In this document: positions 6,426 through 50,107 of the stretch, one piece after another | Numbering within the stretch: position 1 is the first letter of the stretch | How the letters are laid out: every line of letters begins with the position of its first letter | Origin: Janthinobacterium saanense | GTDB taxonomy: Bacteria > Pseudomonadota > Gammaproteobacteria > Burkholderiales > Burkholderiaceae_D | Length of the DNA: 64,000 nucleotides | Direction: 5' to 3' | Assembly: GCF_014200675.1 (NCBI RefSeq) | Contig: NZ_JACHCI010000015.1 | Coordinates: forward strand, 62,001 to 126,000 | Notes under the pieces: generated by a model | Databases searched by the model: none | What the model was told of the DNA's origin: nothing | What the model saw: the letters and a program-made list of their open reading frames with translations, nothing else | Position numbers and translations under genes: made by a program

Positions 6426-6520
6426 GTGAGTCAGGACATCAGTTTACATTGCTTGTGAGAATGACATTTGTTAGACTTCAGCCGAAAATTTCATACTTGA
6501 CAATTACTTGGCTGACGACA

Positions 6521-7192: not shown

Positions 7193-7340
7193 GGCTGGTA
7201 TTCGAGATGAATTTAACGCTACTTGCTTTTGCTTAGATGGTGATAGTCATCGTATCAGCAGTATTTTACAGACTAGATATCGAATTTAAATGATTCGAAG
7301 TGTCGAGGTGTGGGAGTATTCTCAAAATTAATCTGAAAAA

Positions 7341-7772: not shown

Positions 7773-7798
7773 GGCACTTTTTTGATTTTTTTTGACAA

Positions 7799-8149
7799 TC
7801 AACCACAAGCCCTTGTGCAACTGCGATACGGCGTTTCGCACGCTTGCAGGCGTTCGGCGCGGCGGGCGCGGAAGGCTTCGGCTTCGCTGAGGCGCTGTTG
7901 TTGCGCCGGCGGATTCATATCCTGTGCTGTTTTTGCGTAGGGATTGCGGTCTTGCTTCATTGATAGCAAGGGGCTGCTATCGTTTTCAGTGTCGCTCTGC
8001 GCTTCAGAGCGGCAATCCTTGCGGGCCGAAACGCAGACAGCTTTGCATATGGATGGTTCTGCCAGCGGCTTTGGGGTCGCTGGCGTGTCTGCGGCGTAGG
8101 AAGTTGAGGTCAGGCAGAGCAGTAGTGCAAGGGTGCCGGCAAGTCGCAT
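7799..8149 (-). CDS. Small Cys-rich secreted protein, unknown function
   Basis: A 116-residue protein with a clear signal peptide, MRLAGTLALLLCLTSTSYAA, cleaved before DTPA. The mature part is low-complexity and charged with two cysteine clusters, SICKAVCVSARKDC near its start and QACETPYRSCTRACG at its end. The two clusters have similar CxxxCxxxxxxC-like spacing, so they may form paired disulfides in the periplasm. I do not recognise the family. A decayed copy of its C-terminus lies at 6339-6383. Confidence 0.65.
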   Translation of the reverse strand: MRLAGTLALLLCLTSTSYAADTPATPKPLAEPSICKAVCVSARKDCRSEAQSDTENDSSPLLSMKQDRNPYAKTAQDMNPPAQQQRLSEAEAFRARRAERLQACETPYRSCTRACG

Positions 8150-8305: not shown

Positions 8306-11300
8306 TTACTGCGCCGCCAGCCCCAGTTTCAAGCCTACCGGTTTGCCTGGCGTGGCGTCGGTTTTTTCCGGCGCACCGGCGCTGACCCTGGCCGCTGGCG
8401 TGCCATCTTGCTGCAGGGCGGCGAGGATGGCGGCGCTGCGCGCGTTGCCCAGCTTGGTCAGCGCGTCGGCGGGCAATGCCTGCTTTTGCTCCAGCTGCGC
8501 GCGCAAGCCATGGTAGAAGGCACCCGTGTCGGCCACTTGCGGTTCGCCTTCGATCAGTTTGCCCAGGCGTTGCCAGACGGGGATTTTTTCCGCTGCTGCC
8601 GAAGCTGAAGCTGAAGCAGATGCGCTGGCTGCTGCTGGCGCCGCCGTCGGTATTGCCACCTCGGCTGCTTTTTTCTGCTTGTCCAGTTCCGCCTTGCCGA
8701 AGCGTTCTGCATATAGATCGCGCAGGGCGCCCCGTATCTTGCGTTCGCCCAGGTTCAGCGGACCCGGCGCTTCGCCCGCTTCGAGCTTGATGCCAGCCTT
8801 GTTCGTCACGGCCAGGCGTACGGCTTGTTCGCGCAGGGCGGCCGCATCGCTGTCGCTGTACTGGGCCGGCACGGCCAGTTTCAGCTGTTCGCGTTTGGCC
8901 AGGATTTGCGCCACCTGCTTGAGTTTTTCGCGCTCGGGCGGCAGCAGCACGGCGCTGCCCGCGTCGAAGTCCACGGCTTCAAGCTTGTCGCTATTGATCC
9001 CGAGCAAGCTGCCCAGTGCGCGGAAGGGCGCCGTGACGATTTTCGTCAGCACATTGCCGATGGCTTTCCAGATCAGCGCGCCGTAGCTGAATTGCGGGTC
9101 GCTCATGTCGCCCGACACCGGCAAGCCCAGGTCGATGCGGCCGTCCGAATCTTTCAGGATGGCCAGCGCCAATGTCAGTGGCAGCTTCAGCGCGTCGGGG
9201 CTGTCGATGCGTTCGCCCAGGGTCAGCTTGTCGAGCACGATCTGGTTGGTGCCGTCGAGCTGGCGGTTGCGCACCTTGTATTGCAAGTCCAGCGACATCT
9301 TGCCTTCGGCCACCTTGTAGCCGGCAAACTTCATGGTGTAGGGCGAGGCCGAGACCATGTCCACGTTCTTGAAGATGACGCTCAAGTCCGTGTTGTCGGT
9401 GGGCGCAAACGGGTTGAGCTGGCCGCGCACCCGGGCCAGGCCGAATTCATCGATGCGGCCGTCGAGTTCGATCTGGCTGCGCGCATCGCGCTTGGTCGAC
9501 AAGCCCGTGACGATGCCGTTGAGCTCATAAATCTTGGCGCCGAACTGGGGACGCAAGCTCAGGTCGGCAAAGTCCAGCTTGGCGTTTTGCAGGCGCACCC
9601 GGCGCACGCGCACGGGGAAGCTGGCGTCTGCCGTTGGCGTGGCTGCCGTTGGCGCGGCTGCGGCTGACGGTGCAGGCTCGGGCTGCTTGACCAGCAGGCG
9701 CTGGGCGTTCAGGCTGCGGTCGTTTTCAATGATCAGCTGGGCGTTCGGTTCGACGATGCGCAATTCCGGGATATCGAGGAAATTGGGGCCCACGCTGGCC
9801 GTCAGCTTGTCGGTCCGCACGCTTTTCCAGGAAGCGAAACGCTTGCCATCGACTTCATTCAAGACCAGGCCGGCGATATCCACGCCACCGACATAACGCA
9901 CGGTGGGCGCCTTCTTTGCGCCGCCACCGGTCGTCAGCCGGCCGCTGCCCGATAGGGTGCCGCCAGCCAGCTTCAGTTTCAGATATTGGGCCAGCAAGGG
10001 TTGCACGGGCCGCAGCGTCAGCTGTTTCAGGTTCAGCTGCGCATCGAGCGCGGCCGTGCCGGGCACGAACTTGCCGTGCGCCGTCAATAAACCGCCTTCG
10101 CGCAAGCCCACCCCCAGTTCAAAGGGCAGGGCTTGTTTCAAGTCGTTGCTGGCGTCCGTCAGGCTCAGGTGCGCATCTTGCAATTGCCCCTTGAGGCCGG
10201 TGCCGGGATCGTTGTACAGGGCGCCGAACTTGCTCAGCTCTATCTTGCCGACCGTGGTGGCCCAAGCGGCCGATGGTGTAGCTTCCGCCGCTGCAGTCTT
10301 GCTTGACGCAAACACGGGCAGGTTTTGCGCGATGGCAAACTGCCCCTTGTGGTTGCGCGTCAGGTCGATTTGCGCGCCGCTAGCCGTCACAGAACCCAGG
10401 TGCACGGTGTGCGCGGCCAGGTCGATCTTGCCATCTTCAAAGCCCAGCTGGGCCAGCTTGAATGGCGTTTGCGTTCCGCGCTGCATGGCCAGGTCGGCCA
10501 GGCCGAAGCGGGCGCCGTCGATCACGATCTGCGTGCCTGCCGGCGCTTGCTGTAGTTGCAGTTGCAGCTGCAATTGCAGCTGTTTGGCGCTCAAGGCCAA
10601 TGCCGGCTTGACGGTGTCGTCGATGGCATTGACGTCCACATTGCTCAGCGCCAGCTGTTTCAGATCGACTTTCCACCTGCCGGAACTGGGTTGGGCGGGT
10701 TTTGTGGTCTCGGCAACCGGCTTGGCAGTGCCTGCCACCATCAGATTCGCCAGGTCGATCTCGCCTTTGGCGTCGCGGTGTATGGCCACCTTGCCACCGT
10801 CGAAGCCGATCTTGTCCACGCTCACGCTCTGGCGCGCCAGGTCGGCGTTGACACCGGTAACGGCCAGGGTTTGCAAGGTGGTAAATGGCTCGCCCTTGCC
10901 GTCGCGCACCAGGGCCAGGTCGCGCAAGGCCAGTCCGGCGCCCTTGATGCCCGCTTCCAGCTTGCCGTCCGCGTAGGAAAAGGCGTAGGGCAAGCGGGCC
11001 GACAGGGTGCCGCTTGTGACCTCGGCGCGCGTGTAGGCTTTCAGGTAGGCGGCCAGGCCGGGCAGCGAAGCGTCCGTCAGGACCAGTTCGCCTTCGCCAC
11101 GGATCGGCGTCACGGACGCCGTGCCGCGCCAGTGCAGCTTGCCGCCGCGCGCCGCATCGGCGCTGAAGGTGTAGCTGCCGTTGGCGTCGGGCAGGGTGGA
11201 GATATTGTCCAGCGCGAAGTTGATCGGCGTGAAGTTGTCGGCATAACCGGCCTTCTGGTCTTGCCAGGCGACCTTGCCCTGTTCCAGCGCGAAATGGGCG

Positions 11301-11782
11301 ATGACCAGGCGCGGCATGCTGCCGTCCGACGGTTCATGCGGGCGGCGGTTCCAGGTGTCGAGCAATTCGGCCAGGTTGAACTTGCCGTCCGGCGTGATGG
11401 TGAAATGCGCTTGCGGCGCCGTGATGCGGATTTCCGCCAGGCTCCAGGCGCGGCGCACGATGGATTTCCATTCCAGCTGCACGATCAGCGCCTGGATGTC
11501 GAGCAGCGGCGCGCCCTGGGCGCCGGCTGCTTCCTTCAAGGCGATGTCATGCGCTTCCAGGCGCAAGGTAAAGGGATTGAAGCGCACCTCGCCTATGCTG
11601 GCCTGGCGGGCCAGTGTTTGCGCTGCAAATTTGGGGTATTGGCTCTTGATAAGATGCGGCACCAGCCAGAAGCCTGCCGCGCTATAGGCGCCCAGCACGC
11701 AGGCAGTGCCCACGCTCCAGCGTTGCCAGCGTTTCCAGCGAAACTTTGTCGGCTGCACGCTTTTGTTTTCTGTTTTTTTCAC
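8306..11782 (-). CDS. DUF748 AsmA-like envelope protein
   Basis: A large protein of about 1158 residues with an N-terminal membrane anchor (RWSVGTACVLGAYSAAGFW) and a very long beta-repetitive periplasmic body, as in DUF748 proteins, which are AsmA-like and related to the bridge-type lipid-transport proteins. The opening RFNPFTLRLEAHDIAL and the later FKNVDMVSASPYTMKFAGYKV and LGLPVSGDMSDPQFSYG segments are typical of the family. An Ala/Ser-rich low-complexity patch lies near the C-terminus. I use the GTG at 11782 because a GAAGG ribosome binding site sits 6-7 bases before it; the TTG at 11788 abuts that site. It is divergent from the TonB receptor. Confidence 0.85.
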   Translation of the reverse strand: MKKTENKSVQPTKFRWKRWQRWSVGTACVLGAYSAAGFWLVPHLIKSQYPKFAAQTLARQASIGEVRFNPFTLRLEAHDIALKEAAGAQGAPLLDIQALIVQLEWKSIVRRAWSLAEIRITAPQAHFTITPDGKFNLAELLDTWNRRPHEPSDGSMPRLVIAHFALEQGKVAWQDQKAGYADNFTPINFALDNISTLPDANGSYTFSADAARGGKLHWRGTASVTPIRGEGELVLTDASLPGLAAYLKAYTRAEVTSGTLSARLPYAFSYADGKLEAGIKGAGLALRDLALVRDGKGEPFTTLQTLAVTGVNADLARQSVSVDKIGFDGGKVAIHRDAKGEIDLANLMVAGTAKPVAETTKPAQPSSGRWKVDLKQLALSNVDVNAIDDTVKPALALSAKQLQLQLQLQLQQAPAGTQIVIDGARFGLADLAMQRGTQTPFKLAQLGFEDGKIDLAAHTVHLGSVTASGAQIDLTRNHKGQFAIAQNLPVFASSKTAAAEATPSAAWATTVGKIELSKFGALYNDPGTGLKGQLQDAHLSLTDASNDLKQALPFELGVGLREGGLLTAHGKFVPGTAALDAQLNLKQLTLRPVQPLLAQYLKLKLAGGTLSGSGRLTTGGGAKKAPTVRYVGGVDIAGLVLNEVDGKRFASWKSVRTDKLTASVGPNFLDIPELRIVEPNAQLIIENDRSLNAQRLLVKQPEPAPSAAAAPTAATPTADASFPVRVRRVRLQNAKLDFADLSLRPQFGAKIYELNGIVTGLSTKRDARSQIELDGRIDEFGLARVRGQLNPFAPTDNTDLSVIFKNVDMVSASPYTMKFAGYKVAEGKMSLDLQYKVRNRQLDGTNQIVLDKLTLGERIDSPDALKLPLTLALAILKDSDGRIDLGLPVSGDMSDPQFSYGALIWKAIGNVLTKIVTAPFRALGSLLGINSDKLEAVDFDAGSAVLLPPEREKLKQVAQILAKREQLKLAVPAQYSDSDAAALREQAVRLAVTNKAGIKLEAGEAPGPLNLGERKIRGALRDLYAERFGKAELDKQKKAAEVAIPTAAPAAASASASASASAAAEKIPVWQRLGKLIEGEPQVADTGAFYHGLRAQLEQKQALPADALTKLGNARSAAILAALQQDGTPAARVSAGAPEKTDATPGKPVGLKLGLAAQ

Positions 11783-11962
11783 GATCAACCTTCAGTATCC
11801 AGCATTCAGTAATAGACGTCGTACGCGTCTTAACTGGCAGTATGCCTTTTTGTCGCTGAGCCTGCAAAATTGAAGCGTGCTCCCGTGCCAAGGTCCATGC
11901 TGAAAAAACATGGTGGAAGCGTGAATTTTCCTGATTCAAAACTCACCAAAATTCACTTTTTC

Positions 11963-11981
11963 TTGCGAATGATTCTCGTTA
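11963..11981. promoter_or_regulatory. Putative Fur box
   Basis: TTGCGAATGATTCTCGTTA resembles the beta-proteobacterial Fur box form AATGCGAATGATTCTCATT, with mismatches only at the edges and one central position. It lies about 62 bases before the TonB receptor start chosen here, where repressor binding would block transcription under iron sufficiency. The DUF748 gene diverges about 180 bases away. Confidence 0.65.
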
Positions 11982-12043
11982 CGGATATGATGCGGGCTAT
12001 CTTCAGCCTCGCTGCTATTCTTTTTGTAGAAAGTCTTGCCTCC

Positions 12044-14188
12044 ATGCGTGCCGTTTCCCCCGCCATCCAGTTGCTTCCCCTCGTCGCCGCCTTGTCGCTG
12101 GCCTTTGCCTCCACCTCTGCCTTTGCCGCCGATAGCGGGAATGGCCAGGACGACCTGACGGCCGGCGATGAAAAAGTCATGCAGGCGGTGCAGGTGACGG
12201 GCGCCCGCGCGCAAGGCCTGGTGCCGACCACCACCGAGGCGGGCAGCTTCCGTGGCTCCAGCATCATGGACGTGCCATCGACTGTCAACGTGATCACGCG
12301 CGAACTGCTGGAACTGCAGGGCGTGAGCGGCTTGTACGATGCGGTGCGCAATACGGCCGGCGTCACGCGCCAGCAGAACGGCGGCGAAACCTGGGATCAG
12401 CTGGTGATACGCGGCATCGCCGTGGAAAACCGCACGAACTATCGTTTGAACGGTTCCCTGCCCATCATGAACTTCTCGCAAGTACCCATGGAAGACAAGG
12501 AGCGCGTGGAAGTGCTGAAAGGCGCCTCGGCCCTGTATTACGGCTTCAGCTCGCCGGCGGGCGTGGTCAATTTTGTGACCAAGCGCGCCGGCAGCAAACC
12601 TGTCACCAGCGTGGGCCTGACGGTGGGCGACCGTGGCAGCGTAGTGGCCAATATCGACGTGGGCCGCCGTTTTGGTCAAGAGCAGCAATTCGGCGTGCGC
12701 ATCAATGCGGCGGGCGGCACCCTGGGCTCGTATATGGATAATGTGGGCAATGGCAACCGCAGCTTTTTGTCGGCCGCGCTGGACTGGCGCGTGACCAACC
12801 GCCTGCTGTTGAAGGCCGACCTGGAATACGACCGCCGCAAGGTGACCGAGCAGGCTGGCATCAACTTGCCGACCGCCGTCAATGGCGTGATCACCTTGCC
12901 GCATGCGGTTGACCCCAGCCGTTTGATCGGCCCGGACTGGTCCAACTTTGAAGCGCAAACCAAGAATGCGCAGCTGCGCGCCGATTACGCCCTGAGCGAC
13001 AACTGGGCCTTGACGGTCGAAGGCGGCCATTCGGAAACGGCGCGCGACCGCCGCCTGTCGATTTTCCGGCTGACCAATCCCGCCGCCGTGAACACGGGCG
13101 CCGGCAGCATCACGGGCAATATCCAGAATGCCGTGATGGCGTCCGATTTGCTGCGCGCCGAACTGGCCGGCAATTTCAGCACGGGTTTCATTCGCCATGA
13201 ACTGACCCTGGGCGCTTCGCGCACGGATAAATCGCAAACCCCGATCTACCAGCAAAACTATACGATCGCCTCGCAAAACCTGTACAACCCGGCACCGATC
13301 ACCAAGGTGGTATTCGGCGCCGTGCCGGCCAACCCGACCACGGCCGCGCTGGACACGCGCGACACGGGCCTGTATGCGCTCGACCGCCTGGTATTGTCGC
13401 CACAATGGGAAAGCGTGATCGGTGTGCGCCATTCCAGCTACCAGAGCGACCAGGGCACGAATCATTATGACGTCAGCAAGACCACGCCCATGGTCTCGCT
13501 GGTCTACAAGCTGACGCCGGCCATGTCCTTCTACGCATCGACGTCGCGCGGCCTGGAAGAGGGCTCAACGGCGCCGACCGGCACCGCCAACCAGAACGTC
13601 AAGCTGGCGCCGGGCGTCAGCAAGCAAAAAGAACTGGGTGCGCGCTGGATGGCGCCGACCGGCACCCTGGTGTCGGCTGCCTTGTTCGATATCAGCCGCC
13701 CCGGTTACTACACCAACACCAGCAATATCTACACCTCGGACGGCGAGCAGCATTACCGTGGCCTGGAATTGTCGACCCAGGGCAAGCTGACGCGCCAGCT
13801 GTCGTGGCAGACTTCGGCCCAGTTCCTGGACCCGAGCTTTGAACATATCAACGCCCTGTACAACGGCAAGGCGCCGGAAAACGCCTCGAAACGCACGGGC
13901 AGCGCCTTTTTGTCCTACGCCTTCGACGCCGTGCCCGGCTTGTCGGTCAATGGCGGCGCCTATTATTACAGCGCCCGTCCCGTCAACGATTTGAACCAGG
14001 CCTTTTTGGGCGGCGTGACCCTGTTCAGCGCCGGTGCGCGCTACGCCAGCCGCCTGGCCAATAAAGACGTGACCTGGCAGCTGAACGTGGAAAATCTGGC
14101 CGACAAGTTTTACTGGGCTGGCGCCGGCACCCGTCTGGCGTCGGGCGCGCCGCGTTCCATCAAGCTCAGCGTGAAGGTTGATCTGTAA
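12044..14188 (+). CDS. TonB-dependent siderophore-type outer-membrane receptor
   Basis: A 714-residue receptor of the FhuA/FpvA class. A signal peptide (MRAVSPAIQLLPLVAALSLAFASTSAFA) is followed by a TonB-box-like VMQAVQVTGAR, then the plug (IMDVPSTVNVITRELLELQGV; VEVLKGASALYYGFSSPAGVVNFVTKR) and a 22-strand barrel ending SIKLSVKVDL. I start at 12044 because the signal peptide begins there and a Fur-like box lies just upstream; the long in-frame extension to 11870 runs through that box. Its stop overlaps the next start (TAATG), and two PstS-like binding proteins follow in the same operon, which is unusual for a siderophore receptor. Confidence 0.88.
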   Translation: MRAVSPAIQLLPLVAALSLAFASTSAFAADSGNGQDDLTAGDEKVMQAVQVTGARAQGLVPTTTEAGSFRGSSIMDVPSTVNVITRELLELQGVSGLYDAVRNTAGVTRQQNGGETWDQLVIRGIAVENRTNYRLNGSLPIMNFSQVPMEDKERVEVLKGASALYYGFSSPAGVVNFVTKRAGSKPVTSVGLTVGDRGSVVANIDVGRRFGQEQQFGVRINAAGGTLGSYMDNVGNGNRSFLSAALDWRVTNRLLLKADLEYDRRKVTEQAGINLPTAVNGVITLPHAVDPSRLIGPDWSNFEAQTKNAQLRADYALSDNWALTVEGGHSETARDRRLSIFRLTNPAAVNTGAGSITGNIQNAVMASDLLRAELAGNFSTGFIRHELTLGASRTDKSQTPIYQQNYTIASQNLYNPAPITKVVFGAVPANPTTAALDTRDTGLYALDRLVLSPQWESVIGVRHSSYQSDQGTNHYDVSKTTPMVSLVYKLTPAMSFYASTSRGLEEGSTAPTGTANQNVKLAPGVSKQKELGARWMAPTGTLVSAALFDISRPGYYTNTSNIYTSDGEQHYRGLELSTQGKLTRQLSWQTSAQFLDPSFEHINALYNGKAPENASKRTGSAFLSYAFDAVPGLSVNGGAYYYSARPVNDLNQAFLGGVTLFSAGARYASRLANKDVTWQLNVENLADKFYWAGAGTRLASGAPRSIKLSVKVDL

Positions 14189-40062: not shown

Positions 40063-40412
40063 TTCCGCCCCAACAGTCTTTTTGGCAAGCGGCTTGGATT
40101 TTCAAGGTACTTCAACATGCTTTTAAATTCACAAATTTCATATAAACAAGCTTATTTTTCTTCGTATTCAGGCATTTTCAACTTGTATATACTTTTCCCC
40201 GTGGTGTTGTCCTTTACCGAAGTGCAGTTCCCCACATGTCAGGTGCTGGCGATGATCTCGCCCTGGATGCCCGGCTTCAATGGCGCCGCTGGCGGCGCGT
40301 CATCTTCTTATGCTGGCACCCGATCTGATTGCAGTACACAACGCTGGCGCATGCACAAATAGCAAGTAAGAACATCTTAAAAATAATAGTAAAAACCAAA
40401 CAAGGGGTACTG
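40063..40412. other. Divergent promoter region, no gene supported
   Basis: 350 bases between the Fur-like box and the receptor ATG. It is AT-rich in its first third (ACAAATTTCATATAAACAAG) and again just before the receptor, where an A-rich tract leads to the CAAGGGG ribosome binding site. A long untranslated leader for the receptor operon is possible. I see no clear riboswitch-like fold. Confidence 0.4.
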
Positions 40413-42692
40413 ATGGGTAAGCATTTGATTGGATACGGCACGCTGGCCGTGTTGTCGGCTGGCGTGATTGCCTCTGCGCAGGCTCAGCAGCAAAGCACGC
40501 CCGATACGGGGTCCGACACCATAGAACAAGTCAACGTCACGGCCACGCGCTCGGCGGGCGCCGTCGATGTGCAGAAAGTGCCGGCCGCCATTACGGTCTT
40601 GCAGCCGGAAAGCCTGGCCAAGTTTGGCCTGGGCAACTTGGTCGATATCGCCAGCGCCGTGCCGGCCATGAGCGTGCAATCGCAAGGCCCTGGCGTCAAC
40701 AACATCACCATGCGTGGCCTGGTGGTGCGCGGCATCGTGCCGTCGGAAATCCAGGATGCGTCGCTGGTGGCCGTGTATGTCGATGATATGCCGGTGACCT
40801 TGAAATCGGGCAACCCTGACTTGAAAGTACTGGACCTGGAACGCATCGAAGTGCTGCAAGGCCCGCAAGGCACTTTGTTTGGCGCCGGTGCGATGGCTGG
40901 TGCGGTGCGCCAGATTACGCAAAAGCCCGACACCAACGACCTGTTCGGGTCGATCGAAGCGGTGGGCTCGCGCACCTCTGGATTCGGCGGCAACAATCAC
41001 AATCTGCGCGGCATGGTGAACATCCCCTTGAAGGATGATGTGCTGGGCTTGCGCCTGACCGGCTACACGGGCAACGATTCCGGTTATATCAAGAATGCCT
41101 TGACGGGTAGCACCACCAACGCGGTTTCCACCAACCAGGGCCGCGCCGCCTTGCGCCTGAAAGCCTCGCGCGATTTGACGGTGGACGCCAGCATCACGGC
41201 CTCGAACGTGAAGGCAGGCTTGAACGATGCCTATGCCGATCTGGCCCCATTTACCACCATCGCCTTGCTGCCGCAAAGCAGCAATGACAATCTGCAACTG
41301 TACAACCTGGCCGTGAATTATGACTTCGGCCGTGTGCAACTGGTGTCATCGACGTCATATTTACACCGCGATACCTTCTATCAGCAGTCGGCCCAGTATC
41401 CGGCCACCGCCTTTGTTTTTGGCGGCCAGCTGCCGCTGATGGCGGCAGCCTATCAAATTGGTAACAAGGTCACTGATTTTGCGCAGGAATTCCGTTTCAA
41501 CTCGAAAGATGCCGGTCCCTTCAAATGGACGGCGGGCGCCTTTTTGGAAAGCGGCAAGCGCAATGTGGTGCAAAACGAACCGACCATCGGCTTCGATGCG
41601 CGTTTTGCGGCCACGCGCAATTTCCCTGGCTATAACTCGCAAACCAATGAACTGGCCTTGACCCCGGACAATTTCTTCTCCGGCTTGCAAAACACCAAGT
41701 CGCGTCAGGTGGCCCTGTTTGCCGAAGGCACGTACACCGTGTGGGACAAGCTGGACCTGACGGCTGGCTTGCGTCTGTTCCGCGGCACCCAGGATTTCGA
41801 CCTGCGTTTCTCTGGCCTGTTCGGCAACCTGGTCGGCGCCACGCCTACCACGGTGGGCATCCCTGAAACCAGCGCCAGTAGCGCCACGTCGCAAGGCGCC
41901 AACCCGCGCTTTGCCGCCGCCTACCGTGTCGACCCCGACCATATGGTGTATGCCAGCGCCGGCAAGGGTTTCCGCTACGGCGGCAATAACCAGCCCGTGC
42001 CCTTCAATTTTTGCGGCGTCCACGCACCGTCCACGTTTGCACCGGACAGCCTGTGGAACTATGAGCTCGGCTCGAAAAACACTTTGCTGGATCGCCGCAT
42101 GACCTTCAATGTCAGCGTCTACCGCATCGACTGGAGCGATGTGCAAGTGTTTAACAAGTTGCCGTGCACCTATTATTACACCTTGAACGCAGGCAAGATC
42201 CGCAGTCAGGGCGTGGAAGTGGAAACGGCCTTCAAACTGAGCCGTCACGCCACGTTTGGCCTGAGCGCTTCGTATAACGATGCTTACGCCAAGGAAACCG
42301 TGGTGACCGGTATCGCCGCGCAAAACATCCCGGCCGGCAGCCGCACGCCGTATGCGCCGCGCTTTGCCGCCAACGCCACCCTCAGCTACAGCATTCCCGT
42401 GAATGGCAAGGATGAGGTCGGTGTCTCGGCCAGCTACGCCTACCGTGGCAATGCCTACACCAACTTTGCCAAGGCGCAAGGCAGCTACGAAGAGATCCCG
42501 TCGTCGAACATGGTCAACGCCACCCTGACCTACAAGACGGGCGCCTACGAGTTTGGCCTGTTTGGCAGCAACTTGACGAACGGCACCAAGATCAATGACG
42601 TGACCAGCAATGTGATCGCCATCCAGCCGGGCAACACCTTGTTCCTGGCGCAACCACGCACCGTGGGCCTGCGCGTGAAAGCGCGTTTTTAA
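40413..42692 (+). CDS. TonB-dependent outer-membrane receptor
   Basis: A 759-residue receptor. The signal peptide is MGKHLIGYGTLAVLSAGVIASAQAQ, the TonB box TIEQVNVTATRS, the plug runs from VPAAITVLQPESLAKFGLG to VEVLQGPQGTLFGAGAMAGAVRQIT (written IEVLQGPQGTLFG in this protein), and the barrel ends VGLRVKARF with a terminal Phe. The start at 40413 follows CAAGGGG. Only 35 bases separate it from the betaine-type binding protein gene, so it is probably the outer-membrane entry for the same solute. No siderophore synthesis genes are near. The substrate is unknown; the operon points to an organic betaine. Confidence 0.88.
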   Translation: MGKHLIGYGTLAVLSAGVIASAQAQQQSTPDTGSDTIEQVNVTATRSAGAVDVQKVPAAITVLQPESLAKFGLGNLVDIASAVPAMSVQSQGPGVNNITMRGLVVRGIVPSEIQDASLVAVYVDDMPVTLKSGNPDLKVLDLERIEVLQGPQGTLFGAGAMAGAVRQITQKPDTNDLFGSIEAVGSRTSGFGGNNHNLRGMVNIPLKDDVLGLRLTGYTGNDSGYIKNALTGSTTNAVSTNQGRAALRLKASRDLTVDASITASNVKAGLNDAYADLAPFTTIALLPQSSNDNLQLYNLAVNYDFGRVQLVSSTSYLHRDTFYQQSAQYPATAFVFGGQLPLMAAAYQIGNKVTDFAQEFRFNSKDAGPFKWTAGAFLESGKRNVVQNEPTIGFDARFAATRNFPGYNSQTNELALTPDNFFSGLQNTKSRQVALFAEGTYTVWDKLDLTAGLRLFRGTQDFDLRFSGLFGNLVGATPTTVGIPETSASSATSQGANPRFAAAYRVDPDHMVYASAGKGFRYGGNNQPVPFNFCGVHAPSTFAPDSLWNYELGSKNTLLDRRMTFNVSVYRIDWSDVQVFNKLPCTYYYTLNAGKIRSQGVEVETAFKLSRHATFGLSASYNDAYAKETVVTGIAAQNIPAGSRTPYAPRFAANATLSYSIPVNGKDEVGVSASYAYRGNAYTNFAKAQGSYEEIPSSNMVNATLTYKTGAYEFGLFGSNLTNGTKINDVTSNVIAIQPGNTLFLAQPRTVGLRVKARF

Positions 42693-42727: not shown

Positions 42728-43669
42728 ATGGCAAGTATTGCAAGTAGGGCCAAGCCGATGCTGGCGTTGATCACCATGGCCCTGTCATGCGCAACGGCCC
42801 TGGCCGTTCCTGCGGATGCCGGCATCACCATCGGTTCCAAGATCGATACCGAAGCTTCCCTGTTATGCCCGATGGTCAGGCTGGCGCTGGAGGCGAACGG
42901 CATCAAGGTGAAGGAAAAGTGCGGCACGGGCGCCACGCAAGTGGTGCGCAAGGCCTTGCTGGAAGGGGAGATCGATGTCTATCCCGAATACAGCGGCAAT
43001 GCGCCGTACCTGATCAAGAACGTCAAGTTTGAGCCAGGCATTTTCAAGGATGGCGCCAGGGGTTACGCGGCTGGCGCCAAGGCGGACCTGGAACAAAACC
43101 AGATCGTCTGGCTGAAACCGGCGCCAGCCAGCGTCAGCTATGGCCTGGCCATCCCGCAAAAGCTGGCCAAGGCGGAAAACCTGGCCACCCTGGCTGACCT
43201 GGCGCGCTACATCAATGCCGGCAAGATTTTCAAGGTGGTGGTCAGCCAGGAATTCGTCGACCGCGACGATGGCTTGAAGGCGTTTGAAAAAGTCTATGGC
43301 TTCAAATTGAAGCCGGCGCAATTGATCATCCTGCCGGGCGGCAATACGGCCCAGACGGAAACGGCGGCGGCGCAAGGCACCAGCGGCGCCAATGCGGCCA
43401 TGGCTTACACCACCGATGGGCAGTTGCCCGCGCTGGGATTGGTGGCACTGGCCGATAACGCGGGCGCCGTCGATGTGTCGCAACCCTTGTTGACGATACG
43501 CAGTGCGGCCCTGAAGAAATATCCGCGCATCCCCGCCATCATCGATCCCATCTTTGCCACGCTCGACGTAGCAACCTTGTCGCGCCTGAACGCGAAGATC
43601 GTGGTCGGCGGCCAGTCCGGCGCCAAGGTGGCGGAACAGTATCTGAAGCAGAAGGGTTTCCTGAAATGA
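42728..43669 (+). CDS. Betaine-type ABC importer, substrate-binding protein (YehZ/OsmF-like)
   Basis: A 313-residue periplasmic protein with signal peptide (PMLALITMALSCATALAVP). The mature part opens ITIGSKIDTEASLLCPMVRLALEANG and continues with GTGATQVVRKALLEGEIDVYPEYSGNA, the signature of OpuAC/OsmF-type glycine-betaine/choline binding proteins. A ribosome binding site GGAG precedes the ATG at 42728. The gene order that follows (long permease, ATPase, short permease) is that of E. coli yehZYXW. The aromatic-cage residues that would grip a trimethylammonium group cannot be assigned by eye, so the ligand may be another quaternary amine. Confidence 0.85.
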   Translation: MASIASRAKPMLALITMALSCATALAVPADAGITIGSKIDTEASLLCPMVRLALEANGIKVKEKCGTGATQVVRKALLEGEIDVYPEYSGNAPYLIKNVKFEPGIFKDGARGYAAGAKADLEQNQIVWLKPAPASVSYGLAIPQKLAKAENLATLADLARYINAGKIFKVVVSQEFVDRDDGLKAFEKVYGFKLKPAQLIILPGGNTAQTETAAAQGTSGANAAMAYTTDGQLPALGLVALADNAGAVDVSQPLLTIRSAALKKYPRIPAIIDPIFATLDVATLSRLNAKIVVGGQSGAKVAEQYLKQKGFLK

Positions 43670-45084
43670 CGACGGCCATCCGCTTGCCTCGCTTGCCTTT
43701 GATTGGCAAGTCCGGCCTCAGCTGGCCGGGCTTGTCGAAGCGGCCCAGCAGCATTGCCTTGCTGGCAGCGCTGCTGGGCTTGTTGTCCCTGCAATGGTCA
43801 TTCGTGGTGCTGCGCCAGAACCGCGTAATGCCGCTGGGCGATGATTATTCCTTGCTGGCGCTCAACGCAACCTTGGGTGGGGTGGTGGCAGGGGGCTGGC
43901 TGCTGTTTGCGCTCAGCGCCTTGCTGGTCCCGGGCAAGCTGCGCAAGGCGGCGCTGGCTTTCAGCCTGAGCCTGGCAGCCGGCGCCAGCCTTGCCGCCCT
44001 GACCTGGGGCGCACAACACTTAACTTTGGACAATGAATTTGCCCGCGTCAGCATCGCTGCTGGCGCCTGGAGCAGCCTGGCCGCGATCTATATCGCCCTG
44101 TTTGCGCTGCAGTCAGAATCACCCTGGTGGCTGGCTGCGCCCTTGCTGGTGCTGGCTGCGCTGGCAGTCACCGCGCCTTATCAGCACCTGGGCATTGTGC
44201 TGGAATACCAGGCCGTGTCCGATGTGTTTCAGCAAGAATTCATACGCCATCTGTTGCTGGTGGCCGCGACCTTGCCGCTGGCCATTTTGGCGGGCGCAGC
44301 GATAGGCTTGCTGGCCGTGCGCAAGCCGGCGGCGGAAGGCGTGTTGCTGAGTGTTACGAGTTTCTTGCAAACCGTGCCCTCGATTGCCTTGTTCGGCTTG
44401 ATGCTGCCCTTGCTGTCTGCCTATGGACGGCATGTGACGCTGGCCGGCGCGCTGTTGTTTGCCCTGGCGTTGCTGGTATTTGCGGGCGCGGGCTGGCTGC
44501 TGCTGAAACGCTGGAATCATCCCTTATTGCTGACGGTCTATGGTCTCACCATTGCGCTGGGCCTGCTCATCCTGTTGCCCGTATTCGCCATCTCCGTGTA
44601 TCAACTGCTGGCCAATGGCGGCGAATTCATTGCCAGCCTGCACTTGTCGGCCACTCTGGCTGACCTGGGTTTGCGTGGCCTGGGTGCGGCGCCTGCCATC
44701 GTGGCGCTGGTGCTGTACGGCATCTGGCCCATCGTGATTCAAACGCATACGGGTTTGACCAGCGTGCCGGCCGCCATCCTGGAAGCGGCGCGCGGCATGG
44801 GCATGAGTGCGCGGCAAATTTTCTGGCGGGTGGAATTGCCGCTTGCCGCACCGTTCCTGGTGCAGGGGCTGCGCGGCGCCTTGCTGATGCTGATTGGCCT
44901 CTCTACCGTCGCGGTGCTGGTCAATGCGGGCGGCCTGGGCTTTTTCCTGTTGCGTGGCACGGAACAATCGGTGTCCGATCTGGTCTTGCTGGGTTCCTTG
45001 CCCGTCGTCACGCTGGCGTTTGCCGCCGACGCCATCACACGCTCGCTGGCCTGGGCCTTGACGCCACGGGGAGGGCGAGCATGA
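43666..45084 (+). CDS. Betaine-type ABC importer, long permease (YehY-like)
   Basis: A 472-residue inner-membrane permease. The N-terminal half holds about six extra helices. The C-terminal half carries the ABC inner-membrane domain, including LEAARGMGMSARQIFWRVELPLAAPFLVQGLRGAL, the EAA coupling loop that contacts the ATPase. The two-part layout fits YehY rather than a simple ProW/OpuCB permease, and the protein is longer than E. coli YehY. Start and upstream stop overlap in an ATGA, as do its stop and the next start, so translation is coupled through the transporter genes. Confidence 0.87.
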   Translation: MTTAIRLPRLPLIGKSGLSWPGLSKRPSSIALLAALLGLLSLQWSFVVLRQNRVMPLGDDYSLLALNATLGGVVAGGWLLFALSALLVPGKLRKAALAFSLSLAAGASLAALTWGAQHLTLDNEFARVSIAAGAWSSLAAIYIALFALQSESPWWLAAPLLVLAALAVTAPYQHLGIVLEYQAVSDVFQQEFIRHLLLVAATLPLAILAGAAIGLLAVRKPAAEGVLLSVTSFLQTVPSIALFGLMLPLLSAYGRHVTLAGALLFALALLVFAGAGWLLLKRWNHPLLLTVYGLTIALGLLILLPVFAISVYQLLANGGEFIASLHLSATLADLGLRGLGAAPAIVALVLYGIWPIVIQTHTGLTSVPAAILEAARGMGMSARQIFWRVELPLAAPFLVQGLRGALLMLIGLSTVAVLVNAGGLGFFLLRGTEQSVSDLVLLGSLPVVTLAFAADAITRSLAWALTPRGGRA

Positions 45085-46016
45085 TACGTTTGAATCAGAT
45101 CGACAAACATTACGAGCAGGTGGTGGCGCTCAACCGCGTCAACCTGGAAATCGAACACGGCAAGCTGGTGGTGCTGATCGGCCCGTCAGGTTGCGGCAAG
45201 TCGACCTTGTTGCGCGTGGTCAACCGCATGATAGAACCGAGCGGCGGCCAGATCTTGATCGATGGCAAGGACGCGCTGGACATCGATCCCGTGCTGCTGC
45301 GCCGCTCTATCGGTTATGTGATCCAGAGCGCGGGCCTGTTCCCGCACCTGACGATACGTGAAAACGTGGCCGTCGTGCCCCATCTGCTCGGTTGGGATAA
45401 GGCCAAGCGCTTGCGCCGCGCCGACGAGATGCTGGCGCTGGTGCAACTCGATCCGCATAAATTCGGCAAGCGCTACCCGAAAGAATTGTCGGGCGGCCAG
45501 CAGCAAAGGGTGGGCATCGCCCGCGCCCTGGCGGCCGACCCGGCAGTATTGCTGATGGATGAACCGTTCAGTGCGGTCGATCCGATCACCCGCGAGCAAT
45601 TGCAGGAAGAGTTGCTGCGCATCCAGCGCGACGTGCGCAAGACCATCGTGTTTGTCACGCACGATATCGATGAAGCGATACGCCTGGGCGACAAGATTTG
45701 TCTGATGCGCGATGGAGCGGTAGTGCAATACGCCGATCCCGACACCATGCTGCGCCATCCGGCCGACGCCTTCACAGCGCAATTCATCGGCCAGGAAGCT
45801 GAACTGAAACGGCTGGGCCGCCACAGCGTGGGCGACTTCATGCGCCCAGGCACGCCAGAGCACAGCCTGGCTGGCGCCGAGCGGGTAGGGCAGGCGAGCA
45901 GCGCCCGCAGTGCGCTCAGCAAGTTGCTGGGCGGCCAGGCGGCGCTGGTGGTGGTCGACGCCAGCGGCGCGGCGGTCGGCCATGTGTCCTTATCTGACTT
46001 TGCGGCGCTGGCATGA
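45081..46016 (+). CDS. Betaine-type ABC importer, ATP-binding protein (YehX/ProV-like)
   Basis: A 311-residue ABC ATPase. Walker A is GPSGCGKST, the Q-loop lies in YVIQSAGLFPHLTIRENV, the signature is LSGGQQQR, Walker B is VLLMDEPFSAVD, and the H-loop is FVTHD. The C-terminal part after about residue 230 (HSVGDFMRPGTPEHSL and VVVDASGAAVGHVSLSDF) is CBS-like, as in osmoregulated betaine ATPases, where it senses ionic strength. It overlaps both neighbours by 4 bases. Confidence 0.92.
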   Translation: MIRLNQIDKHYEQVVALNRVNLEIEHGKLVVLIGPSGCGKSTLLRVVNRMIEPSGGQILIDGKDALDIDPVLLRRSIGYVIQSAGLFPHLTIRENVAVVPHLLGWDKAKRLRRADEMLALVQLDPHKFGKRYPKELSGGQQQRVGIARALAADPAVLLMDEPFSAVDPITREQLQEELLRIQRDVRKTIVFVTHDIDEAIRLGDKICLMRDGAVVQYADPDTMLRHPADAFTAQFIGQEAELKRLGRHSVGDFMRPGTPEHSLAGAERVGQASSARSALSKLLGGQAALVVVDASGAAVGHVSLSDFAALA

Positions 46017-46768
46017 GTCAATCTTTCTTCAACCGTCAAGCACTGGGTTTGCTGTGCTGGCCTTTGCTGTGGCTGGTGTACAGCCATGAAAGCTGGTGGC
46101 AGGCTTTGCTGGCGCCTTTGGGCGAGCCTGGCCAGCCGGTGCTGTATGAACGCATCAGCTTGCTGGAAGCGGCGCAAAGCCATGTGCTGATCGTGGCGGT
46201 CGCCATGGCCGGCGTGCTGCTGCTGGGTTTGCCGCTGGCGATCTGGGCCACGCGCAGCGCCGGCAAGACTTTCCTTCCGCTCATCGCCAATGGCGCCACC
46301 ATCGGCCAGACCTTGCCGCCCGTGGCCGTGCTGTTCCTGGCTACGCCCATCTTCGGCTTCGGCCCGCAAGCCATCATGTTTGCCCTGTTTGCCTATGGCT
46401 TGATGCCGACGGTGCAGGGCGCCCTGACGGGCTTGCAGCAAGTCGATGGCGATATCAAGCGAGCAGCGCAAGGCATAGGCATGGGCGCCTGGCGCCAGCT
46501 GTGGACCGTGGAATTGCCGCTGGCCTTGCCGGCGATACTGGCCGGTGTGCGCACCAGCCTGGTGTTGTCGGTGGCCACCGCGTCGCTGGCGCCGATGGCG
46601 GGCGGCGTCAGCCTGGGCACGCCGATTGTCTCTGGCCTGGCCGTCAACAATGCCACGCAAGTGATGGAAGGCGCGCTGGCCGTGGCCTTGCTGGCGATCG
46701 CCTGCGATTACTCGATGCGCGTGCTGGAACGCTGTCTGACGCCCTGGCGTCAAGGATCAACACAATGA
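46013..46768 (+). CDS. Betaine-type ABC importer, short permease (YehW-like)
   Basis: A 251-residue permease with five or six helices. The EAA loop appears as IKRAAQGIGMGAWRQLWTVELPLALPAILAGVR, and the second half GGVSLGTPIVSGLAVNNATQVMEGALAVALLAI is typical of OpuCB/ProW-type subunits. It pairs with the long permease to form the channel. It overlaps the ATPase gene (ATGA) and the start of the lyase-like gene (ATGA), so the enzyme is translationally tied to the importer, a strong hint that it acts on the imported solute. Confidence 0.9.
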   Translation: MSQSFFNRQALGLLCWPLLWLVYSHESWWQALLAPLGEPGQPVLYERISLLEAAQSHVLIVAVAMAGVLLLGLPLAIWATRSAGKTFLPLIANGATIGQTLPPVAVLFLATPIFGFGPQAIMFALFAYGLMPTVQGALTGLQQVDGDIKRAAQGIGMGAWRQLWTVELPLALPAILAGVRTSLVLSVATASLAPMAGGVSLGTPIVSGLAVNNATQVMEGALAVALLAIACDYSMRVLERCLTPWRQGSTQ

Positions 46769-48297
46769 AAATGGAAAACCCGATGGTCTTGTTGGACGAA
46801 ACCGCGCTGGACTGGCGCGCCGTGGCGCGTGTGGCGCTCGGCGCGCCGCTGGCCTTGAGCCCGGTGGTGCATGAGCGTTTGCATAATGCGCGGCGCATCG
46901 TCGAGCGCATCGTGGCCGATGGCGTGCGCGCCTACGGCATCAATACGGGCCTGGGCGCCTTGTGCGAACAGGTGCTGGAACCGGCCTCGCTGGCGACTTT
47001 ATCCTTGAATACCCTGAAAAGCCATGCCTGCGGCGTGGGCGAACCCATGCCGGACGAGCTGGTGCGCGCCATCATGTGCGCCCAGATCAGCAACTACAGC
47101 CATGGCAAGTCCGGCATCAGCCCGGAACTGGTCGATGGCTTGCTGGCCTTGCTCAATTTGCACTTGACGCCGCTGGTGCCGGCGCGCGGTTCTGTCGGCT
47201 ACCTGACGCATATGGCGCATATCGGCTTGCCGCTGGCGGGCTTGTCGCAAGTGCGCGTGGCTGGCAAGGTGGTCGATGCGAAACAGGCGCTGGCTGACGC
47301 TGGCTTGCAAGTTTTGACGCCGGGAGCCAAGGATGGCTTGAGCCTGGTCAATGGCACGCCGTGCGTGACGGGCTTGCTGAGCATGGCCTTGTTTCATGCC
47401 GAGCGCCTGCAGAAGTGGGCCGATATTGTCGCCGCCATGAGTTTTGAAGCGCTGCGCGGCCAGATGGCCGCGTTTGATGCAGAAGTGCTGGCGTTAAAGC
47501 CGCATCCGGGGTCGCAGCGCGTGGGCCGCAACCTGCGTGCCTTGCTGGCCGGCAGCGAAGTGCTGGCTAAAGCACAAGGAGTGCGCACGCAGGATGCGCT
47601 CAGCTTGCGCGCCGTGCCGCACATCCATGGCGCCACGCGCGACCAGGTCGAACATGTCTCTAGCCAGGTTAATATCGAACTGGCCTCGACCACCGACAAT
47701 CCACTGGTGCTGGGCACGCCCGATGATTACCGGGTCGTGTCGCAAGCCCATCCGCATGGCCAGTCGATGGCGTTTGCCGCCGATTTATTGCGGATCGCCT
47801 TGGCCGAACTGGGCGGCGTGGCCGAACGCCGCATCGACCGCCTGGTCAATCCCCTGGTCAGCGGCTTGCCGGCATTCCTGGTGGAAAACAGCGGCGTCAA
47901 TTCCGGCCTGATGATCGTGCAATACGTGGCCGCTTCGCTGGTGGCCGAAAACAAGGTGCTGTCGCAGCCCATGGTGGTGGACAACTATGTGACTTCGGCC
48001 TTGCAGGAAGACCATCTGAGTCTGGCCACCCCATCGGCGCTGAAAACCTTGCAGGTGATCGCGAATGTGGAACGGGTGCTGGCGCTGGAATTGCTGGCGG
48101 CTGGACAAGCCTTGCAGTTTTATCCCTTGGCATCCCTGGCGCCGGGCACGCGGGCTGCGCTGGCCTTGCTGCGCGAACACGTCGCTCCCTATACGCAAGA
48201 CCGCATGCTGGCGCCCGATATCGAGGCGGCGACCAAACTCATACAGGGCGACGACGGCATCCACCGCATCGAAGCGCTACTCGATATCAGGCTGTAA
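46765..48297 (+). CDS. HAL/PAL-family lyase lacking the MIO tripeptide (ergothionase-like candidate)
   Basis: A 510-residue member of the histidine/phenylalanine ammonia-lyase superfamily by length and by conserved blocks: YGINTGLGAL (Tyr57), LVNGTPCVTG, SLRAVPHIHG, ELASTTDNPLV, PAFLVENSGVNSGLMI and LQEDHLSLATPSA. The catalytic Ala-Ser-Gly that cyclises to the MIO group is absent. Where family members read GSVGASGDLAPLAHM, this protein reads GSVGYLTHM (residues 142-150), an in-frame gap of about six residues. The Tyr of the family's DPYSLR block is Leu here (QDALSLR). Without MIO it is unlikely to deaminate ordinary amino acids. A substrate whose amine is already a good leaving group, such as the trimethylammonium of ergothioneine or hercynine, would not need it. 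Coupling to a betaine importer supports this; the reaction is inferred. Confidence 0.75.
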   Translation: MKMENPMVLLDETALDWRAVARVALGAPLALSPVVHERLHNARRIVERIVADGVRAYGINTGLGALCEQVLEPASLATLSLNTLKSHACGVGEPMPDELVRAIMCAQISNYSHGKSGISPELVDGLLALLNLHLTPLVPARGSVGYLTHMAHIGLPLAGLSQVRVAGKVVDAKQALADAGLQVLTPGAKDGLSLVNGTPCVTGLLSMALFHAERLQKWADIVAAMSFEALRGQMAAFDAEVLALKPHPGSQRVGRNLRALLAGSEVLAKAQGVRTQDALSLRAVPHIHGATRDQVEHVSSQVNIELASTTDNPLVLGTPDDYRVVSQAHPHGQSMAFAADLLRIALAELGGVAERRIDRLVNPLVSGLPAFLVENSGVNSGLMIVQYVAASLVAENKVLSQPMVVDNYVTSALQEDHLSLATPSALKTLQVIANVERVLALELLAAGQALQFYPLASLAPGTRAALALLREHVAPYTQDRMLAPDIEAATKLIQGDDGIHRIEALLDIRL

Positions 48298-48315: not shown

Positions 48316-49299
48316 ATGGCATTGCAAACCTATCAACACGCGGCCGGCTCTGAATATATAGACGAAGAGCAGCATCTGCATATTTCCAGCGAACGGGGCC
48401 GCCGGTTGTGGCTGGCCGAATGGCCGACCTGGCTATTGATTGTGACCATCCATGCGGGCTGGCTGGGCACGCTGTTTTTCTGGCGCCAGCTCGGCACGCT
48501 GCCGGCCACCTTGCTGATGATCTGGTGGTGCGCCTGGTATATGTCGCTGCAGCATGAGCTGATCCACGGCCATCCCACGCCCTGGCCCTGGTTCAACCGC
48601 CTGTTCGCTTATGCGCCGCTGGCCGTCTGGTATCCGTACAAGCTGTACCGCGACAGCCATTTGCGCCATCACGTGGATTTTCATCTGACCATGCCGGCGC
48701 TGGACACGGAAAGCTATTATGTGTCGCCCGCCGTGTGGGCAGGCATGAGTAAACCCATGCAAAAGCTGCACTGGCTCAACAAGACTTTCTGGGGCCGCAT
48801 GCTGGTCGGGCCGTTGCTGTCGATCAGCGGCGCCTGGAGCCAGGTCGTGCGCCAACCCTTGAAGGGCAACTGGCATTATGTGCCGATGTGGCTGATCCAC
48901 TTTGCCATGCTGGCCGCCATGCTGTGGGCTATCGACAGCTATTTTGGCGTATCGCCACTGTATTATCTGCTGGCCATTTCCTATCCGGCCCAGTCGATCG
49001 CCAAGATACGCTCGTATTATGAACACCGGCCGGCTGAAGAGCACAAGCAGCGCATCGTCATCAATGAAGCGGGGCCCGTGTTCCGCTTGCTGTTTTTGAA
49101 TAATAATCTGCACCTGGTGCACCATGATTTCCCCTCGCTGCCCTGGTATCTGATTCCACGCGTGTATCAGGCCCGGCGCGCGGCCTATATTGCACGCAGC
49201 GGCGGTTTTCATGTGAACGGTTATGGCGAGCTGATGCGCCGTTTTGGCTTTAGCCCCATCGACGCGCCTGTCCACCCGCATATGCCTGAGCCGGAGTAG
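48316..49299 (+). CDS. Membrane fatty-acid-desaturase-like di-iron protein
   Basis: A 327-residue membrane protein with the three histidine clusters of the desaturase/hydroxylase superfamily: HELIHGHP, HLRHHVDFH and HLVHHDFP. Hydrophobic pairs of helices lie before and between them (WLLIVTIHAGWLGTLFFW; MWLIHFAMLAAMLWAI). Such proteins use two irons and O2 to desaturate or hydroxylate lipids or small molecules. It lies 18 bases after the lyase-like gene and 4 before a PhnD-like gene, so it is part of the same operon and may modify the lyase product or substrate. A fatty-acid role is not required by the sequence. Confidence 0.78.
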   Translation: MALQTYQHAAGSEYIDEEQHLHISSERGRRLWLAEWPTWLLIVTIHAGWLGTLFFWRQLGTLPATLLMIWWCAWYMSLQHELIHGHPTPWPWFNRLFAYAPLAVWYPYKLYRDSHLRHHVDFHLTMPALDTESYYVSPAVWAGMSKPMQKLHWLNKTFWGRMLVGPLLSISGAWSQVVRQPLKGNWHYVPMWLIHFAMLAAMLWAIDSYFGVSPLYYLLAISYPAQSIAKIRSYYEHRPAEEHKQRIVINEAGPVFRLLFLNNNLHLVHHDFPSLPWYLIPRVYQARRAAYIARSGGFHVNGYGELMRRFGFSPIDAPVHPHMPEPE

Positions 49300-49303
49300 C
49301 CTG

Positions 49304-50107
49304 ATGAACTGGAAAGTAGCCTTGCCCATGTATAACGTCTCGCCGTCTGTGCGGGAGGCGTATGAAGCCTTGCTCGACGCCGTGATCGATGCGTTGCGCA
49401 GCGGCGGCTGGCGTGGGCAGGTCGAGCTGGTGCGTGATCCTGCCTTGCCTGATCTTTGGAAGCAGCCTGATCTGCTGTTCGGCCAGACGTGCGGCTATCC
49501 GTATATGACGCAGTTGCAAGGCCAGGTGCAATTGATCGCCACACCCAGCTACGCCATGCCTGGCTGCCACGGCAGCGATTACTCGAGCGCCATCGTGGTG
49601 CGCAGCAATGGGGCCATCCGCGGCCTGGAGGACGCACGCGGCTTGACCGCCGCCGCCAACGACCGCCATTCCAACAGCGGCATGAATGTCTTGCGCCACG
49701 CCGTCGCCCCGCTGGCCGTCGATGGGCGCTACTTTGACGAGGTGATCTGGTCAGGCAGCCACTATGCCAGCCTGGGCCTGGTGCGCGAGGGCGCGGCCGA
49801 TATCGCCGCCGTCGATTGCGTCACCTTCGCCTACTTGCAGCAAGAAAACCCGGCCTGGCTGGAAGGGTTGTCCGTTTTGCAGTATTCGGCGTCGTCGCCG
49901 GGTTTGCCGATGATCGCCGGCCAGCAGGTTCCGGCGGAACTGCTGGCGCAATTGCGGACGATTTTGCTGCAGCCGGACCTGGTCCTGGCCCAGCTGATGC
50001 GCGCCTTGCACATTCGTGCTTTCGAGCACCGGCCGCACCTGGATTACTGCCGCATCCTGGAACTGGAATGCGAGGCGCAGGCAGTCGCTTATCCCACATT
50101 GCGATGA
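49304..50107 (+). CDS. PhnD-like substrate-binding-fold protein without signal peptide
   Basis: A 267-residue protein with the type II binding fold of the PhnD/phosphonate-binding family: DLLFGQTCGYPYM, a long YSSAIVVRSNGAIRGLEDARGLTAA strand-loop, SNSGMNVLRHAV, and VREGAADIAAVDCVTFAYL are typical. It starts MNWKVALPMYNVSPSVREAY with no signal peptide, so as written it is cytoplasmic. The start at 49304 is 4 bases after the desaturase stop. Family members exist that work as enzymes or sensors rather than transport proteins. Its place at the end of the betaine operon suggests a catabolic or sensing role. Confidence 0.72.
   Translation: MNWKVALPMYNVSPSVREAYEALLDAVIDALRSGGWRGQVELVRDPALPDLWKQPDLLFGQTCGYPYMTQLQGQVQLIATPSYAMPGCHGSDYSSAIVVRSNGAIRGLEDARGLTAAANDRHSNSGMNVLRHAVAPLAVDGRYFDEVIWSGSHYASLGLVREGAADIAAVDCVTFAYLQQENPAWLEGLSVLQYSASSPGLPMIAGQQVPAELLAQLRTILLQPDLVLAQLMRALHIRAFEHRPHLDYCRILELECEAQAVAYPTLR

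Follow-up and report, generated by a model that had tools for sequence, protein, structure and literature searches.

A lyase gene without the MIO-forming residues

We analysed a window of 64 000 nucleotides from Janthinobacterium saanense (C15:62001-126000 of its 6.1 Mb, 48-contig genome, G000), in which a putative operon encodes a betaine-type importer and, with its start overlapping the last permease gene as a previous reading of the DNA had noted from the sequence alone, a homologue of the histidine and phenylalanine ammonia-lyases (HAL/PAL; Table 1). The lyase open reading frame (ORF) has zero internal stops and its product matches PF00221 over the full length of the model (520.9 bits; residues 16-471, model positions 2-466 of 466), while its scores fall short of the two NCBIfam histidase cut-offs (501.3 against 539.15 for TIGR01225 and 503.3 against 524 for NF006871). 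In alignment with the Pseudomonas putida histidase, GSVG-ASGD-LAPLAHM of the latter pairs with GSVG-Y-LTHMAHI of the window lyase, a net loss of three residues. The Ala-Ser-Gly (ASG) tripeptide that forms the 4-methylideneimidazole-5-one (MIO) cofactor is therefore absent, and the cofactor is unable to form because these residues are gone. ORF, Pfam match and alignment thus bear out the sequence-only reading in its description of a full-length, in-frame HAL/PAL homologue without ASG and with Leu for the family Tyr. That reading placed the gap differently, however, pairing THM of the lyase with AHM of histidase, where the true partner is AHI, three residues along.

A sequencing gap or a pseudogene is ruled out, as the same lesion is found in all 111 rows of the clade described below and the ratio of nonsynonymous to synonymous substitution rates (dN/dS), calculated with two orthologs, is 0.13 and 0.17. 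The genome encodes three PF00221 proteins in total: a canonical histidase, whose gene adjoins HutU and HutG-F-D-I, a lyase that we take to be of the aryl-polyene type (row L038) and the window lyase.

Table 1. Coordinates of the lyase gene, its diagnostic codons and the surrounding operon within the window
Feature	Position	Strand	Basis or remark
MIO-less PF00221 lyase, GYLxH clade, HutH1-like, 510 aa	46765..48297	+	ORF, Pfam, alignment, trees
Signature G142-SVGYLTHMA-H152 replacing the MIO segment	47188..47220	+	Alignment
Tyr146 codon	47200-47202	+	Tyr in 111/111 clade rows
His149 codon	47209-47211	+	His in 111/111 clade rows
Leu279 in place of histidase Tyr280	47599..47601	+	Alignment
Putative HutC-like operator TTGTATATACTT	40183..40194	+	One mismatch to TGTA-N2-TACA; tentative
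TonB-dependent outer-membrane receptor, first gene of the putative operon	40413..42692	+	Pfam
OsmF-like substrate-binding protein, PF04069	42728..43669	+	NF049931 317.4 bits
ATP-binding cassette (ABC) permease, YehY-like	43666..45084	+	Profile matches
ABC ATPase, ProV/choline kind, YehX-like	45081..46016	+	TIGR01186 321.4 bits, cut-off 326.6
ABC permease, YehW-like	46013..46768	+	Stop overlaps lyase start as ATGA at 46765
Membrane fatty-acid-desaturase-family protein	48316..49299	+	PF00487 95.1 bits; 19 bases past lyase
PhnD-like periplasmic binding protein	49316..50107	+	PF12974 80.2 bits

Active-site residues and the GYLxH clade

By searching whole genomes, plasmids and named genomes we obtained an alignment of 111 rows with the GYLxH signature (in which the window gene and row L004 are one gene counted twice), 108 ASG rows, 6 ergothionase-type rows and one odd row. 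The signature, GSxGYLxHxAH, reads GSVGYLTHMAH in 96 rows and shows near variants in the other 15. Using the numbering of P. putida histidase (PpHAL) except where a lyase residue is stated, the replacement of ASGD by Tyr and of Pro148 by His is found in 111/111 GYLxH rows, as is the retention of Tyr53, His83, Asn195, Gln277, Arg283 and Glu414; of these we take His83 and Glu414 to contact the imidazole ring. Position 280 is Leu in 111/111 GYLxH and 6/6 ergothionase-type rows and Tyr in 108/108 ASG rows, and Phe329, retained in 108/108 ASG rows, is lost from every GYLxH row (Pro in 98, the window lyase among them, Ala in 12, Cys in 1). The residues replaced in the clade, namely Tyr280, Phe329, Asp145 and Pro148, lie near the cofactor. 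Ergothionase-type rows, whose hallmarks we took from the alignment itself, have Ser at position 195 (6/6) where GYLxH rows have Asn, and a lesion that leaves them one residue shorter than histidase as opposed to three; the window lyase has in common with them the absence of MIO and the Leu at 280.

In the histidase of Geobacillus kaustophilus, changes to Tyr52, His82, Asn194 and Glu411, the counterparts of Tyr53, His83, Asn195 and Glu414, abolished histidase activity (PMC11432326). The same paper predicts that the Tyr and the Glu lie near the carboxylate and amino groups of the substrate, and says that the counterparts of Tyr280 and Phe329 assist the Glu and stabilise a cationic intermediate. 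The residue pattern of the clade is that of an enzyme which would still handle a histidine-like substrate, without MIO chemistry.

Phylogenetic analysis places the GYLxH proteins apart from the ASG enzymes, so that the window lyase is not a true HAL/PAL enzyme with a sequencing gap. With the MIO columns removed, 32 GYLxH rows, spanning Pseudomonadota to a Priestia plasmid, fall on one side of a branch with support 95/86, and the ergothionase-like rows group with support 100/100. Addition of tyrosine aminomutase gives 96/95 and 100/99, respectively, and in this tree the MIO rows need two changes. A joint MIO-less clade of GYLxH and ergothionase-type proteins is not rejected by the approximately unbiased (AU) test, in the presence of long branches (p 0.563), so that MIO may have been lost either once or twice. 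Membership of the window lyase in the ergothionase clade itself is ruled out by the separate supported clades, the different lesion, Asn195 in place of Ser and an identity of 28% to the Treponema denticola ergothionase (6s7j), compared to 40% to histidase. The predicted structure of the lyase (mean predicted local distance difference test (pLDDT) 84.7, predicted template modelling (TM) score (pTM) 0.88) retrieves histidase chains as the first ten Foldseek matches and ergothionase as the fifteenth. All TM-scores lie between 0.85 and 0.90 (0.87 for P. putida HutH, 1b8f; 0.88 for 6s7j), and the fold alone therefore gives no decision between the two.

The GYLxH lyase occurs in 23/398 genomes of our phylum sample, approximately 6% of the sampled Pseudomonadota; of 24 matches at E <= 1e-100, one (G679) was left out as it carries ASG. 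It was found in 2/369 genomes of the class sample, where the other two matches carry ASG, and in 3/225 of the family sample. A Bacillota member lies on a Priestia megaterium plasmid (L045 5986-7524; GSLGYLNHQAH), where its neighbours are HutU, HutI and a gene of the agmatinase family. Among named proteins, Pseudomonas HutH1 (P. fluorescens SBW25 type) has the same clade and signature, an invariant active site and an importer gene directly upstream. The window lyase is 61% identical to the HutH1-like product of a P. simiae gene (L095), which we equate with SBW25 hutH1 by gene order, not by the SBW25 sequence. In Pseudomonas the HutXWV importer lies inside the hut operon, whereas the window has a TonB-OsmF-YehYXW operon apart from hut.

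Gene neighbourhoods, importers and a HutC-like site

We examined 99 GYLxH loci, 76 of them from Pseudomonas and thus representing few independent cases. At least two of HutU, HutI, HutF and HutG are present at 80 loci; one further locus has a single hut gene, 3 have only HutC or histidase and 15 have none. Thiourocanate hydratase, thiohydantoin desulfurase, ErtD and ErtE are found at 0/99: the neighbours of GYLxH genes are hut genes, those of ergothionase (ErtA) genes thiourocanate hydratase and desulfurase. The hut-linked cases come from six families of the sample, Thalassospira and the Priestia plasmid, in arrangements that differ between them. For example, G119 has the order importer-lyase-HutU-HutD-HutI-HutF-HutG, with a HutU that scores 945 bits to TIGR01228 and falls below both thiourocanate cut-offs, and G661 has HutU-lyase-HutI-HutG. 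Other independent arrangements include those of G980, G822 and the Priestia plasmid, and of Rhizobium etli p42e and Thalassospira, where HutC stands beside the importer. Canonical HutU is encoded in 25/25 other GYLxH genomes, within less than 12 kb of the lyase gene in 18 and far from it or on another contig in the remaining 7; in G000 it is on contig C5 (933.6 bits). The genome with the nearest ortholog (G1210, 88%) has the lyase and a single HutU, with no thiourocanate hydratase.

Among the loci checked, an ASG histidase is visible in 14/17 genomes, with G937 and G1235 as named exceptions; G1210, G1175 and others encode both types, and a 2016 study notes several HutH paralogues in HutC regulons (PMC5343134). 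The hut locus of G937 (L158) holds two MIO-less lyases, at 6512-8050 and 10480-12120, one of GYLxH type and the other ergothionase-like (GSLGAAD), as well as an OsmF-like importer.

The importers at the 99 loci are of OpuAC (betaine) type in 78 and of basic-amino-acid type in 12, with a partial match at 4 and none at 5. Three types accompany the lyase: OsmF-like and ProX/HutX-like (both PF04069, betaine), and LAO/HisJ-type (PF00497, basic amino acids). The HutX-type proteins of L095, L174 and L157 are ProX-like PF04069 members under the ProX cut-off, and the binding proteins of L039 and L042 are LAO/HisJ-like. Since both betaine and basic-amino-acid importers accompany the lyase, the betaine of a basic amino acid offers common ground, and we infer that a substrate that is both would fit all three types. 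The OsmF-like protein of the window belongs to PF04069, is under the NF049931 cut-off of 400 and has OsmF (4wep, 255 bits) as its best solved relative, whereas EgtU, an ergothioneine-binding member of the same superfamily, scores 99.7 bits. An ortholog of the receptor gene occupies the equivalent position in L047, L048, L049 and L173, and another adjoins the GYLxH lyase in L174; the desaturase-family and PhnD-like genes are kept in L047 and L173 (G1210 and Rugamonas), and no counterpart of them was seen in either Duganella locus (L048, L049).

Elsewhere in G000, directly after the canonical hut operon on C5, lies a gene that fuses an OsmF-like binding protein to a permease (L037 14787-16277). 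An EgtD-like PF10017 methyltransferase (C4:241457-242350, 345.9 bits) suggests that the organism may make hercynine itself; such methyltransferases occur in 7/26 genomes, G000 included, and neither explain nor exclude hercynine as the substrate of the lyase.

Urocanate releases HutC from its operator, TGTA-N2-TACA (PMC12977541), and G000 encodes a HutC (295.9 bits, cut-off 220). In the regions preceding 17 GYLxH operons we found two exact sites, seven with one mismatch, including that of the window, and eight with at least two. The two exact operators precede the hut-unlinked lyase genes of L039 and L155. The window's TTGTATATACTT recurs unchanged in G1210, Rugamonas and one Duganella, and with a single-base change in the second Duganella; the region is also readable as a -10-like TATACT. 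The site hints weakly at a link between the window operon and urocanate.

Candidate substrates of the window lyase

Residues, neighbourhoods and importers together make it probable, in our view, that the window lyase is a MIO-free hercynine (N-alpha-trimethyl-L-histidine) trimethylamine-lyase feeding the hut pathway. We also lean towards the view that GYLxH proteins as a whole form a so far unrecognised type of enzyme with this activity, letting many Pseudomonadota use histidine betaine via hut. Hercynine would be taken up by way of the TonB receptor and OsmF-like importer, its imidazole and carboxylate would be held as in histidase, and Tyr57 (histidase Tyr53) would take the beta proton. Trimethylamine, a far better leaving group than unactivated ammonia, could then depart without MIO, with the invariant Tyr146 and the Leu and Pro substitutions making room for, or caging, the trimethylammonium group. 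The overall reaction would convert hercynine to urocanate and trimethylamine, urocanate passing to HutU-HutI-HutF-HutG, encoded elsewhere in G000, and probably releasing expression through HutC. The sequence-only reading had proposed an ergothionase or a related betaine lyase. A betaine lyase is still the simplest reading of a MIO-free enzyme whose gene overlaps a betaine importer, although the protein lies outside the ergothionase clade. Among the substrates then suggested, hercynine fits best because relatives of the lyase lie in hut operons with a canonical urocanate hydratase, and because the rhizobial genomes of the phylum sample with both this lyase and thiourocanate hydratase (3/3) have a separate ergothionase-type gene in their ert clusters. 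MIO-free elimination is already known from ergothionase; the GYLxH lesion, clade, genomic context and putative substrate differ from those of ergothionase. We found no paper naming such a hercynine lyase in a search that covered mainly open-access journals.

Several observations weigh against this assignment, including the ert genes and the hut operon of G937 considered below. There is no hut gene beside the window operon, and HutXWV is said to take part in histidine uptake (PMC8871633). The model has pLDDT < 50 at residues 405-416, a stretch holding part of the active site. The HutC-like site is imperfect and sits inside a longer conserved block; among 1256 further 400-base stretches of the window, 3.7% contain an equally good match to the operator, the 12-base pattern is found once against 0.46 expected, and 8/17 loci tested have at least two mismatches.

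A further possibility, which we regard as unlikely, is that the lyase is the working ergothionase of the organism, its thiourocanate product being degraded by the ert cluster. The sequence-only reading was right that the operon lacks thiourocanate genes; a set comprising ErtE, ErtD, thiohydantoin desulfurase and thiourocanate hydratase, each of which exceeds its NCBIfam cut-off, is nevertheless present on this contig approximately 60 kb upstream, beyond the bounds of the window, and suggests that the organism may process thiourocanate. This cluster (L152, C15:36001-56000) also holds a major facilitator superfamily (MFS) transporter and a porin. It follows the gene order of Burkholderia arboris L182 but lacks an ergothionase-type gene, present in L182 between transporter and porin, and neither of the other two PF00221 proteins of G000 is of ergothionase type. 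Thalassospira marina likewise has an ert cluster without its own ergothionase, on one plasmid with a GYLxH lyase, and in the phylum sample lyase and thiourocanate hydratase (23 and 6 in 398 genomes, G000 having both) co-occur in 4 (P 1.2e-4, relatedness uncorrected). Set against this are the low identity, separate clade, different lesion and Asn195 of the window lyase, and the fact that 4/5 other hydratase genomes of the sample have an ert cluster that includes its own ergothionase-type gene. Three of those four, the rhizobial G698, G755 and G888, also have the GYLxH lyase and are all (3/3) the other genomes of the sample that combine lyase and hydratase; G1210 has the lyase without the hydratase. 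Moreover, ert clusters without any ergothionase-type gene exist, since G920 has one and its sole PF00221 gene is an ASG histidase. MFS or tripartite ATP-independent periplasmic (TRAP) importers beside ErtA-less clusters, the latter on Thalassospira and Paracoccus plasmids (from a search of the plasmids), suggest uptake of thiourocanate.

More doubtful is a MIO-free histidase that releases ammonia from plain histidine by some other activation. The clade keeps all polar histidase residues, its genes lie in hut operons and have LAO/HisJ-type importers at several loci, and G937 has a hut operon with a GYLxH lyase, none of its three PF00221 genes encoding an ASG histidase. Yet MIO was lost together with Tyr280 and Phe329, most genomes checked have an ASG histidase as well, and betaine-type importers prevail. 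The leaving-group logic would apply equally to another aromatic betaine, for example of tryptophan or tyrosine, or to partly methylated histidine, and the window operon lacks adjoining hut genes and has desaturase-like and PhnD-like neighbours that histidine betaine does not explain; with His83 and Glu414 invariant, HutU in every genome compared and the linkage to hut, we hold such substrates to be improbable. A catalytically dead or regulatory histidase paralogue would account for the loss of the cofactor and is very improbable given the low dN/dS values, the invariant active-site residues and the conserved operons with importers.

Databases label GYLxH genes histidine ammonia-lyase even though the catalytic cofactor cannot form, a warning against passing on the histidase label by homology. 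If the hercynine assignment is correct, the sampled Pseudomonadota genomes with the lyase would carry a route by which hercynine, known from fungi and mycobacteria (PMC9103826), is converted to glutamate and trimethylamine is set free. This assignment would provide a testable function for Pseudomonas hutH1 and HutXWV, explaining a module that is reportedly dispensable, and Tyr for Ala-Ser-Gly-Asp would be a second MIO-free lesion, unlike that of ergothionase. The ergothionase clade also includes a protein with a signal-peptide-like start on Sinorhizobium meliloti pSymA (L043 7893-9533; GSVGQAD), whose gene adjoins a PF16867 gene of the dimethylsulphoniopropionate (DMSP)-lyase family and an SBP_bac_5-type ABC importer; it is possibly a periplasmic onium lyase.

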